Positions 3,540 to 25,801 of a DNA stretch of 56,927 bases are shown here, one piece after another (position 1 is the first letter of the stretch; every line of letters begins with the position of its first letter). Origin of the DNA: Candidatus Staskawiczbacteria bacterium (GTDB lineage: Bacteria > Patescibacteriota > Minisyncoccia > Minisyncoccales > Staskawiczbacteraceae); assembly GCA_023245145.1 (NCBI GenBank), contig JAHFKW010000004.1:37318-94244 (forward strand), written 5' to 3'. The notes below the pieces were generated by a model that was not told the DNA's origin, made no database searches, and saw nothing but the letters and a program-made list of their open reading frames with translations. Made by a program: the position numbers and the translations under genes.

Positions 3540-3838
3540 AAAATGGATTTTACTTTTACGTAATTGTCTTGTTTATCGGGCGCTGACGCAACCAAATTAT
3601 TGGCCAGACTCGCCACCTGTGGCATGGCCTTATCAACTCGAGTCACCTTTTTGATTCCTACATTCTTGAGAATGTTAGAATGTTTCGCCTTACTTACTTT
3701 TGGCACTTTCGCCTTTTTCAGTAAATCAAAATAGCCCAAAATCGCCGACAAATCTTTTTGCATTTTATGGGTTTCATCTTCGGTTAACTCCAATCTCGCC
3801 AATTTAGCGATATGTAGCACTTCTTCTTTACTGAGCAT
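3536..3838 (-). CDS. gatC: Aspartyl/glutamyl-tRNA amidotransferase subunit C
   Basis: Small GatC subunit that wraps GatA and stabilises the GatCAB complex. The N-terminus MLSKEEVLHIAKLARLEL is the family start. An upstream in-frame ATG at 3874 would run into mreB, so the start at 3838 is chosen (100 aa). It overlaps gatA by 4 nt and begins 8 bp after mreB, forming an mreB-gatC-gatA run. Confidence 0.93.
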   Translation of the reverse strand: MLSKEEVLHIAKLARLELTEDETHKMQKDLSAILGYFDLLKKAKVPKVSKAKHSNILKNVGIKKVTRVDKAMPQVASLANNLVASAPDKQDNYVKVKSIL

Positions 3839-3845
3839 GCAATAA

Positions 3846-4910
3846 TTATATATCAAACTCGTCGTCCTTGGCAATCAACGCCCCCAGCATTTCCATATTT
3901 TCCAGCGCAATGCCACAACCGCGCACCACGGAAGTTAATGGATCATCAATAATTTTACAAGGCATTTTAGTTTCTCGTGCAATAAGCTGATCTAATCCTC
4001 GCAGTAAACTTCCTCCACCCGCCAAATAAATTCCGTTAGTCATCACATCGCTCAATAATTCCGGTGGCGTTTCCTCAATTGTCACTTTAATGGCCGCCAC
4101 GATTTGTTTAACCGAGCGCTCAAGCGCCCGCTGAATATCATCATTAAACACTACTACTTCTTCGGGCAACCCCGTCACCAAATTTCGTCCGCGCATGGGC
4201 ATTTCTTTTTTATCCTTAAGTGGTAAAGCTGATCCAATATTTATTTTTATGAATTCGGCTGTGCGCTCCCCGATTAATAATTTATACTCTTTTTGAGCAA
4301 ATTGAATAATATCGTCATTAAGTTTATCTCCGGCTATTTTTAAACTTTTAAAAGCCACAATCCCTCCGAGTGAAATAACAGCTACTTCTGTAGTACCGCC
4401 GCCAATATCTACAATAAAATTTCCACCAGCTTCTTGGATGGGTAATTTGGCGCCAATGGCTGACGCCAACGGTTCTTCAATTAAAAAAACTGTCCTGGCA
4501 CCGGCATTTTTGGCCGCATCAATCACCGCCTTTCTTTCCACCTCTGTTACTCCGCACGGAATACCAATAATCACCCGCGGAGTATATCCAAACCCAAACC
4601 ATTTTTTACTACCTGCCACCGCTTTTTCAATAAAATATTTTAACATTTGCTCGGTGACTTCAAAATCTGAAATCACGCCGTTGACCAATGGCCGGGTGGC
4701 TGTTATATAAGAGGGAGTTCTGCCTACCATTTTCTTGGCCTCTTCTCCAATAGCTAAAATTTGTCCAGTTTTGTTATTAACCGCCACCACCGACGGCTCG
4801 TTGATAATAATTCCCCTGTCTTTTACATACACTAAAGAATTGGCCGTTCCCAAATCAATGGCCATATCCATGGTCAGAAATGAAAATAGTTTTTTAAACG
4901 GGTTAAACAT
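3846..4910 (-). CDS. mreB: Rod shape-determining protein MreB
   Basis: Actin-like ATPase that forms membrane-associated filaments organising lateral cell-wall synthesis. 354 aa with the phosphate-1 loop AIDLGTANSLVYV, phosphate-2 FIVDIGGGTTEVAVISLGG and the adenosine region AGGGSLLRGLDQLI, all typical of MreB. A short N-terminal amphipathic segment (MFNPFKKLFSFLT) may bind the membrane. It overlaps proS by 8 nt. A second, distinct mreB is at 9635-10642. Confidence 0.95.
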   Translation of the reverse strand: MFNPFKKLFSFLTMDMAIDLGTANSLVYVKDRGIIINEPSVVAVNNKTGQILAIGEEAKKMVGRTPSYITATRPLVNGVISDFEVTEQMLKYFIEKAVAGSKKWFGFGYTPRVIIGIPCGVTEVERKAVIDAAKNAGARTVFLIEEPLASAIGAKLPIQEAGGNFIVDIGGGTTEVAVISLGGIVAFKSLKIAGDKLNDDIIQFAQKEYKLLIGERTAEFIKINIGSALPLKDKKEMPMRGRNLVTGLPEEVVVFNDDIQRALERSVKQIVAAIKVTIEETPPELLSDVMTNGIYLAGGGSLLRGLDQLIARETKMPCKIIDDPLTSVVRGCGIALENMEMLGALIAKDDEFDI

Positions 4911-8927: not shown

Positions 8928-8945
8928 CCATTACACCATAAAAAT

Positions 8946-8983
8946 GGTATGATAGTTTACAAAGCTTCGTTTTTTACACTACC
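8946..8983. repeat. Composite 38-bp dyad site, left copy
   Basis: GGTA and TACC ends are equidistant (18.5 bp) from the centre of AAGCTT at 8962-8967. The left arm reads GGTATGATA and the right arm ACACTACC. Additional right-arm words follow inside the element at 8987-8994 (AACACTACC-like) and 9006-9013 (AACACTAT), resembling arm-type binding sites. Confidence 0.7.
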
Positions 8984-9009
8984 GTAACACTACCAATAAA
9001 TTAGCAACA

Positions 9010-9534
9010 CTATGTGAGTTTTTCGATTAAAAAGATTTTTACGTATCCGTCTAGATTGTGTATTTGCAAAAGATCTTCGGTTTGACGAAAAACATCGTAA
9101 GGCGTAACCCAAGCGCTCTGCTGAAACAATTCATAGCCCATGTTTTTTAAAACGCTTCTCAAAAGTCCGCGGGCCTTGGGGTGCTTTTGTGGAATATCAA
9201 AAATCACCATAATCCATTTTCTATCTTTTCGTCTTGGCCTTTCTTCAGACGTCCATTTTGAAACCAGTGCCTTGGAAATACCCTTTTTCGTCAATAGTAT
9301 TGCCTGTTTGCCCTCTAAGTTTTTTACCTTAATATAGTTGTTCTGTTTGAGATAATATACGAGCTGACTAAACTTTCGCTTATTTTTATCTCTGCGGTAC
9401 TTTTGAAAAACCGGGTGCTCGTTTCCCGTCAACATATAAATTCGATGATATCTATCAGCCAGCAACATATCGGCCACCTCTCCTGTCATGCAGAGAATAT
9501 CAAGTAGAAATTGATCGGTAATAGGTAATTTCAT
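9010..9534 (-). CDS. Cas2/PaaX-like protein (winged helix plus Cas2-like ferredoxin fold)
   Basis: 174 aa. The N-terminal half (about 1-95) is basic and helix-rich, like the winged-helix DNA-binding domain of PaaX regulators; the C-terminal half (about 105-174) has WIMVIFDIP, ARGLLRSVLKNMGYELFQQSAWV and YVKIFLI, the beta-alpha-beta pattern of the Cas2-like domain with the conserved Asp after the first strand. No cas1, other cas gene or CRISPR array is present. It sits between two 38-bp dyads, one at its own promoter. It could be an autoregulator, a nuclease, or part of the mobility of its own unit. The fold assignment is fairly safe; the function is unknown. Confidence 0.8.
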   Translation of the reverse strand: MKLPITDQFLLDILCMTGEVADMLLADRYHRIYMLTGNEHPVFQKYRRDKNKRKFSQLVYYLKQNNYIKVKNLEGKQAILLTKKGISKALVSKWTSEERPRRKDRKWIMVIFDIPQKHPKARGLLRSVLKNMGYELFQQSAWVTPYDVFRQTEDLLQIHNLDGYVKIFLIEKLT

Positions 9535-9543
9535 AAATAATAT

Positions 9544-9581
9544 GGTAGTGTCTTTTACAAAGCTTCGTTTTTTATCATACC
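9544..9581. repeat. Composite 38-bp dyad site, right copy, overlapping the Cas2-like gene's promoter region
   Basis: GGTAGTGT on the left and TATCATACC on the right, around the same core as 8946-8983 and in the same orientation. On the minus strand TATGAT (within this site) can serve as a -10 with TTGTTT 17 nt upstream, placing the dyad across the start region of the 9010-9534 gene, so it could also be an operator. Confidence 0.65.
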
Positions 9582-9603
9582 ATAATGATAAATTGCAAAC
9601 AAC

Positions 9604-9634: not shown

Positions 9635-10642
9635 TTATTTCTTGCTCATCACCACCTTCTTATACTCCTCCAAATGTTCCAGCACCGTTCCTGTCCCCTT
9701 GATAACGCAAAACAGAGGCTCTTCGGCAATAAAACACGGTACGCCGGTTTGCTGGGCCACCAGTTCGTTAATTTTTGGTAAAAGCGCTCCCCCACCCGCC
9801 ATAATAATTCCTTTATTCATAATATCGGCTGACAATTCCGGCGGAGTTTCAGCCAATACCTGTTTGGCTGATTGAATAATTTCAGACAGAGTATCGGAAA
9901 TGGCTTCACAGACTTCATTGTTGGAAATTTTAATGTTTCGTGGCAAGCCTAAAATCAAATCTCGACCCTGAATTTCCATAAACTTTAATTCTTTTTGCGG
10001 CAGTGCTGTGCCCACTTTTATTTTAATTTCTTCGGCTGACTGCGTACCAATCGCCAAATTGTATTTTTTCTTGATATATTCGGCAATCGCCGCATCAATT
10101 TTGTCTCCCGCCACGCGAGCCGAATGAGCCGTTACAATTCCACCCAAAGAAATCACGGCCACTTCGGATGTGCCACCACCAATGTTAATAATCATATGAC
10201 CTGAAGAAGAATTAATGGGAATTCCGGCCCCAATGGCGGCCAAAATCGGCTCTTTAGCAACGTAGGCTTCACGAGCCCCTGCGGAAAGCGCCGCTTCAAT
10301 TACAGCTCGTTTTTCGGTGCTGGAAATACCGGCCGGTACCGAAATAACCAATTCGGGCTTAAAGATTCGCCAATGTTTGGTGGATTTGGAAATAAAATGA
10401 CGCATCATGGCTTGGGTAACTTTGTAATCAGCAATCACGCCGTCTTTTAACGGGCGATAGACTTTAATGTCAGCCGGAGTTCTGCCAATCATTTCTTTGG
10501 CGGCTTGGCCCACTGCCAAAATACGTTTGTCAGACAAAGAAACAGCCACCACTGATGGCTCACTTAATACAACTCCCTTTCCCCGAACATACACCAAAGA
10601 GTTACACGTTCCAAGATCAATCGCTATTTTATTGTTGAACAT
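9635..10642 (-). CDS. mreB: Second MreB/Mbl-family actin-like protein
   Basis: 335 aa with IAIDLGTCNSLVYVRG (phosphate 1), MIINIGGGTSEVAVISLGG (phosphate 2) and IIMAGGGALLPKI (adenosine). It is clearly MreB family but diverged from the copy at 3846-4910. It lacks that copy's N-terminal amphipathic extension and ends in a basic tail KKVVMSKK. It follows murA by 9 bp, so the pair couples peptidoglycan precursor synthesis with the cytoskeleton. mreC, mreD and rodA are not adjacent. Confidence 0.93.
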   Translation of the reverse strand: MFNNKIAIDLGTCNSLVYVRGKGVVLSEPSVVAVSLSDKRILAVGQAAKEMIGRTPADIKVYRPLKDGVIADYKVTQAMMRHFISKSTKHWRIFKPELVISVPAGISSTEKRAVIEAALSAGAREAYVAKEPILAAIGAGIPINSSSGHMIINIGGGTSEVAVISLGGIVTAHSARVAGDKIDAAIAEYIKKKYNLAIGTQSAEEIKIKVGTALPQKELKFMEIQGRDLILGLPRNIKISNNEVCEAISDTLSEIIQSAKQVLAETPPELSADIMNKGIIMAGGGALLPKINELVAQQTGVPCFIAEEPLFCVIKGTGTVLEHLEEYKKVVMSKK

Positions 10643-25732: not shown

Positions 25733-25801
25733 ACAAAAAAGCTATCAACAAAAGTTGTCTGGGTTTTCCCAAGCTTGGAGATTTACAGACACAAAAAAAT
25801 C

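Follow-up and report, generated by a model that had tools for sequence, protein, structure and literature searches.

A 640-bp segment of the window (by which we mean the whole stretch of 56,927 nucleotides analyzed here) looks like a candidate for a previously undescribed minimal mobile gene unit, because the same package, one gene held between two sister palindromes, recurs in many places with differing palindromes and is accompanied by stray palindrome copies. We judge the chances to be about even that the segment belongs to a family of mobile units, each a single gene bounded by palindromes, with a REP/RAYT-like organization, in which a PaaX/Cas2-like protein binds its own palindromes. The features of the unit, together with a gene-less (solo) dyad found elsewhere in the window, are as follows:

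8946..8983, minus strand: downstream dyad, directly after the gene stop (Y-core-X' in gene orientation)
8957..8976, plus strand: core copy 1, a 20-bp direct repeat
8987..8994, minus strand: extra Y half-site, ACACTACC, adjoining the downstream dyad
9010..9534, minus strand: gene for a 174-aa winged-helix plus Cas2-like (PaaX_M) protein
9544..9581, minus strand: upstream dyad, in the promoter region (X-core-Y' in gene orientation)
9555..9574, plus strand: core copy 2, a 20-bp direct repeat
25755..25792, plus strand: solo dyad of the C8-copy family, in the convergent-gene space adjoining secY

The original prediction, of two 38-bp sites sharing a core in direct orientation 598 bp apart, proved exact on re-reading. 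The 20-bp core TTACAAAGCTTCGTTTTTTA occurs twice on the plus strand with zero mismatches and a start-to-start spacing of 598 bp, where 0.02 matches would be expected in the window even at up to three mismatches. The left site reads GGTATGATA-gt-core-cactacc and the right site GGTAGTGT-ctt-core-tcatacc. The predicted inverted repeats were borne out as well, over 11 bp for the outer arms X/X' (ATGGTATGATA/TATCATACCAT) and over 8 bp for the inner arms Y/Y', and the additional Y-like word beside the left site is present. Since the core is nearly palindromic, with AAGCTT at its center, both 38-bp sites are dyads over their whole length. No integrase or recombinase gene lies inside the unit, whose contents are the winged-helix Cas2-like gene alone. 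Nearby, the window carries two MreB-like genes (3846-4910 and 9635-10642) about 5 kb apart, a pair that is kept in most of the genus.

That this sole gene encodes a winged-helix, Cas2-like protein in a genome without cas1, as had been claimed, agrees with our searches. The C-terminal half of the protein matched Pfam PaaX_M, a Cas2-like domain (E 1.5e-15), and nothing else in Pfam was found. In NCBIfam, weak matches to Cas2 and PaaX both fell under the cut-off, with 20.8 bits for CRISPR Cas2 (TIGR01573, cut-off 24.5) and 18.7 bits for the full-length PaaX equivalog (TIGR02277, cut-off 264.55). An AlphaFold2 model made with 49 family members (pLDDT 82, residues 19-32 poor) predicted a winged helix plus a Cas2-like fold. 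Using this model, the best Foldseek match was PaaX of Escherichia coli W (E 3.7e-4), the nearest solved full-length relative, and several solved Cas2 chains matched the C-terminal domain weakly. The Cas2-like domain has a conserved Asp after beta-1 and a Q-x-S-V-W/F motif. Residues invariant in the family include D104, F112, R122, L129, Q138, and S140, with D113 almost invariant, and we take these to be the Cas2 pattern. No transposase active site was recognized in the protein. It shares with PaaX the order of a winged helix followed by a Cas2-like domain, but has 174 aa compared to the 279 positions of the PaaX model and belongs to a multicopy family whose genes lie between paired dyads and which also has free dyads. 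With CRISPR Cas2 it shares the Cas2-like domain, but it carries an extra N-terminal winged helix and no CRISPR array is found at the unit. We rejected a CRISPR remnant, since the window's genome (G000) has no match to cas1; a Cas1 match was present in 4 of 58 relatives.

Homologs were found in 33 of the 58 related genomes, at 0 to 12 copies per genome, in a sample of mostly incomplete genomes with one per species. G000 (625,768 bp, 99% complete) holds three further copies, 47-56% identical, and each of its four copies is bracketed by its own, differing dyads, HindIII-centered in three and NotI-centered in the fourth. A scan of GTDB genomes confirmed at least 481 relatives; among the matches listed, nearly all were from Patescibacteria, the nearest being from Candidatus Staskawiczbacteria. 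The notion of phage cargo was discarded, as no relative was confirmed in IMG/VR.

We analyzed the dyads around 53 family copies. Measured to its center, the upstream dyad was 24-105 bp ahead of the start codon, and its sister was centered 14-128 bp past the stop, although a few of these 53 automatic upstream/downstream pairings are not true pairs. A matched pair (at least 24 of 40 bases) was present in 47 of the 53 copies. Dyad similarity was 0.83 within a copy and only 0.44 between copies; i.e., the palindromes are copy-specific. In a test across Patescibacteria that took in 43 further copies from distant classes, the upstream/downstream match exceeded the 99% level of mismatched pairs in 72 of 95 copies, or about three quarters. 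As a control, 478 genes of 130-260 aa were scanned; 10 passed the pair threshold, and six of these were members of this same Cas2-like family.

The internal profile of the dyads bears on whether they act as DNA or as RNA. Complementarity at the three central pairs was 0.90, 0.91, and 0.98, dipped to 0.6 at 6-7 bp off center, and climbed again to 0.83-0.90 at 14-18 bp. A hairpin loop would be free to vary, yet here the center is the best-paired part, which argues for a DNA dyad, with the profile of one bound by protein. It is therefore very improbable, in our estimate, that the dyads work as hairpins in the RNA, one at either end of the message, stabilizing it, terminating it, or offering a substrate to a Cas2/VapD-like RNase, even though nucleases do occur within the Cas2/VapD superfamily (PMC10491678) and mismatches in the stems, read on the sense strand, comprise 89 G.T compared to 54 A.C. 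No Rfam family reached its gathering score at the dyads, and a T-run followed the downstream dyad in only 9 of 47 copies. This scarcity of T-runs, together with the mismatched-pair, gene, and shuffle controls, led us to reject an origin of the dyads by chance or as terminators.

A -10-like box followed the upstream dyad in 37 of 47 copies and the downstream dyad in 19 of 47. PaaX is known to repress its own promoter, and its operator, TGATTC(N27)GAATCA, is a dyad of ~39 bp (PMC9493321), which the family dyads resemble in length and in their outer half-sites. Autoregulation from the upstream dyad is likely on account of the -10-like boxes and this likeness to PaaX, and the protein would thus probably repress its own promoter from there. 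Judged by its sequence, the downstream dyad would not usually be either a promoter or a terminator. Dyad similarity correlated with protein similarity (Mantel r 0.45, 0 of 2,000 permutations), also within a close group (0.24, 11 of 2,000), as expected if each protein reads its own dyad. Together, the relatives of the protein, the geometry of the sites, and this covariation suggest that the protein most likely binds its own pair of ~38-bp dyads.

Much of this would also suit a plain autorepressor of the PaaX type that has one operator over its promoter, another behind its stop, and a few more elsewhere, and whose gene comes and goes by natural transformation and homologous recombination rather than by machinery that an element encodes. 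This is the main alternative, and we regard it as a serious contender of clearly lower probability. PaaX is the closest fold, and the dyad geometry, self-repression, -10-like boxes, and dyad-protein correlation would all follow. What such a repressor leaves unexplained is the dyad after the stop, which is present even where the next gene is convergent, as in the window. The operator role that had been offered as an alternative to mobility thus fits the upstream dyad, but neither the post-stop dyad nor the solo dyads in convergent spaces and coding sequence described below.

Comparison of conserved gene junctions showed that the unit moves, or comes and goes, as dyad-gene-dyad, as seen from presence and absence, non-orthologous occupancy, and solo dyads. 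The genus keeps the mreB-holB junction, and wherever its sequence is readable beyond mreB, G000 alone has the unit there. At dprA-topA, a unit is found in G003, G009, G010, and G012, with the place vacant in G001, G005, G006, and G008; at mutM-holA, one is found in G001, G003, and G007, with the place vacant in G000, G006, and G010. The vacant junctions bear no dyad. At a junction between two Zn-ribbon paralogs, the unit is complete in G019, and a solo dyad, related in type, is present in G021. A single clade for the five dprA units was rejected (AU p 0.0014). The dprA unit of G012 (L020) clusters with L041, a unit at another place in G009 (support 87/96), and the dprA place of G009 holds L012. 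Similarly, the dprA unit of G032 (L011) and L016, elsewhere in G026, are sisters (100/99) and have a rare GCACCTGC-type core in common. The autorepressor alternative accounts neither for such unrelated lineages at one place nor for 0 to 12 diverged copies per genome.

Against a mobile unit, several observations must be weighed, besides the failure to recognize a transposase active site and the fact that the nearest solved full-length relative, PaaX, is a repressor. Units are co-directional with their upstream gene in 38 cases and opposed in 8 (46 readable cases), a bias not expected from random insertion, and for some members vertical inheritance at a fixed place is a good fit, namely the comEC pair and mutM-holA, where a one-clade test was not rejected; nor was it for femAB. 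Moreover, near-identical full units at two places were not found, and no recent transposition is seen, since copies are old and, within a genome, only ~45-60% identical. In L040 and L010, the Cas2-like unit is followed, ahead of topA, by a partial repeat of the dprA 3' end. We do not take this duplicated tail for an integration signature, because neighbor-gene duplications also flank unrelated inserted genes: in G000, MazF/PemK-like and NYN-like genes (identified by eye; L126:15495-15902 and L129:6386-6946) are flanked by duplicated starts of neighboring genes, as if insertion duplicated a piece of the next gene. Partial duplications at other inserted genes also suit an autorepressor gene spread by ordinary recombination. 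As for the predicted mobile unit of gene plus dyads, the discrete package between conserved neighbors, its recurrence elsewhere, and the free dyads hold up, but the crossed arms on which that proposal also drew occur in few copies.

We then searched for solo dyads with the resident dyads as queries, requiring at least 28 of 38 positions. Seven matched resident copies in G000 and three in G021 (six copies; 382 kb read), where shuffled queries gave an expectation of ~0.1. Across genomes, G000 queries had no match in G021 or in G004 (no copy; 400 kb), and G021 queries none in G000 or G004. Raw palindrome totals were abandoned as a discriminator, since they could not tell genomes that have the gene from those that lack it, a distinction achieved solely by matching to resident copies. 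Weaker solo members, recognized by similarity plus palindromy, were also present. With gene names read by eye from translations, the solo dyads lay where convergent genes meet (efp, secY), behind groEL, ahead of glmS, and within the coding sequence of rlmN. The few that lie shortly upstream of genes (glmS, pcd-like) could serve as further operators of an autorepressor, but those between convergent genes and within rlmN, uvrA, and miaA are not explained by it.

The dyad in the rlmN coding sequence (G021, L144 ~3656-3693), one of the ten solo sites, is a near-perfect palindrome, and near-perfect unit-type palindromes also lie in the holB coding sequence of G003 and G010 (L065, L066); the uvrA site is weaker (25 of 38, plus palindrome). 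The uvrA and miaA dyads sit in a variable linker and the proteins are not lengthened, which speaks against a net insertion of the dyads into these two genes. In-frame palindromes inside conserved protein genes are known as Rickettsia palindromic elements (PMC10969869). The dyads inside rlmN, uvrA, miaA, and holB are alike in this respect but are ~38 bp rather than ~150 bp long and correspond to palindromes that flank a resident gene.

Solo dyads of the C8 and window types occur side by side at two places in G000, L101:13115-13196 (C9) and L086:9201-9291 (C3). The same genome has two solo-dyad families, GTGCGAG..TGTAGTATA and AGTAAAGCTTTACT, without a resident Cas2-like gene of their type, and one of the two occurs inside miaA. 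Their sites are:

L088:10229-10266: solo dyad of a family without resident gene
L090:1436-1473: solo dyad of a family without resident gene
L094:4163-4200: solo dyad of a family without resident gene
L084:14233-14270: solo dyad of a family without resident gene
L087:6068-6105: solo dyad of a family without resident gene

Alongside the third of these, L094:3000-5235 (C4) holds a reverse transcriptase-like gene with repeated variable segments, resembling a diversity-generating retroelement.

The original prediction had further read the two sites of the window as attL and attR, half-exchanged products of attB and attP. When we compared the arms across copies, 36 informative positions favored symmetry within each site, 23 favored direct copies, and 12 the crossed pattern. 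Arms were clearly crossed in the window copy and L038 and partly so in L025 and L059, while most copies have two dyads that are each symmetric on their own. Since the crossed pattern is found in few copies, the attL/attR scheme is not general, and we rejected it as a family-wide rule. In its favor, the Y-core-Y' site that it predicts does exist, as a perfect gene-less dyad in G000 (C9:72,859-72,896; GGTAGTGTAAAAAACGAAG|CTTTGTTTTTTACACTACC). The corresponding X-core-X' empty site was searched for and not found, a symmetric attB-like dyad was absent from the empty mreB-holB, dprA-topA, and mutM-holA junctions, and neither a target duplication nor a precise excision product could be defined.

The closest parallel in organization is with REP/RAYT systems (REPtrons, with Y1 transposases related to IS200/IS605), in which one gene is bracketed by two palindromes, particular to each copy of the gene, and sister palindromes are scattered gene-less (PMC2817692). 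Here, too, the Cas2-like gene is flanked by two palindromes of one family and gene-less palindromes are dispersed, if in low numbers. The differences are that the protein is winged-helix plus Cas2-like and not HUH/Y1 (PF01797); that the palindromes are AT-rich, complementary through the center, and without a GTAG head; and that free copies number ~7-12 in G000, not hundreds. Because the defining Y1 transposase is missing from both protein and genome, the unit is not a member of REP/RAYT, and a RAYT in the window's genome was dismissed for want of any Y1 match. Alternatively, a different enzyme might move the palindromes, either an HUH transposase of the IS200/RAYT type or a tyrosine recombinase of the host, with the Cas2-like gene as cargo or regulator. 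The REP/RAYT-like organization, the Y1 transposases in 34 of 58 relatives, and the direct orientation of the cores, which suits a recombinase, are compatible with this idea. We nevertheless consider it improbable: Y1 matches are absent not only from G000 but also from G024, which has nine copies, G003, and G012, and between copies the palindromes change together with the Cas2-like protein, the gene inside being always the same.

Returning to the palindrome-bounded mobile unit, the free dyads could, by analogy with REPs and RAYT transposases, be targets, scars, or gene-less copies. The Cas2-like protein may itself help to cut or pair DNA, and host recombination is a possible route for the unit. 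That the protein takes part in moving the unit is suggested with less certainty than its binding to the dyads and its self-repression. We would go further only tentatively, to a reading that we think rather unlikely, in which a new class of minimal element has the winged-helix Cas2-like protein as its only enzyme, and this protein recognizes the palindromes on either side of its gene and drives both unit insertion and dispersal of the free palindromes, a Cas2-based parallel to RAYT and REP. Such an element might possibly be a relative of the ancestral pairing of Cas2 with palindromic repeats in CRISPR.

In the open-access library that we searched, we found no report that links PaaX/Cas2-like genes with palindromes. 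Proteins of this kind are numerous in Patescibacteria and are easily taken for orphan Cas2 or PaaX; recognizing that they are enclosed by copy-specific palindromes, of which stray ones also occur in the genome, assigns them a role that can be tested. A mobile reading would place a Cas2-fold protein among the suspected DNA-moving enzymes, and the finding is relevant to the question of how Cas2 and palindromic repeats came to act together. The small CPR genomes, supposedly poor in mobile elements, would then carry minimal units of their own.
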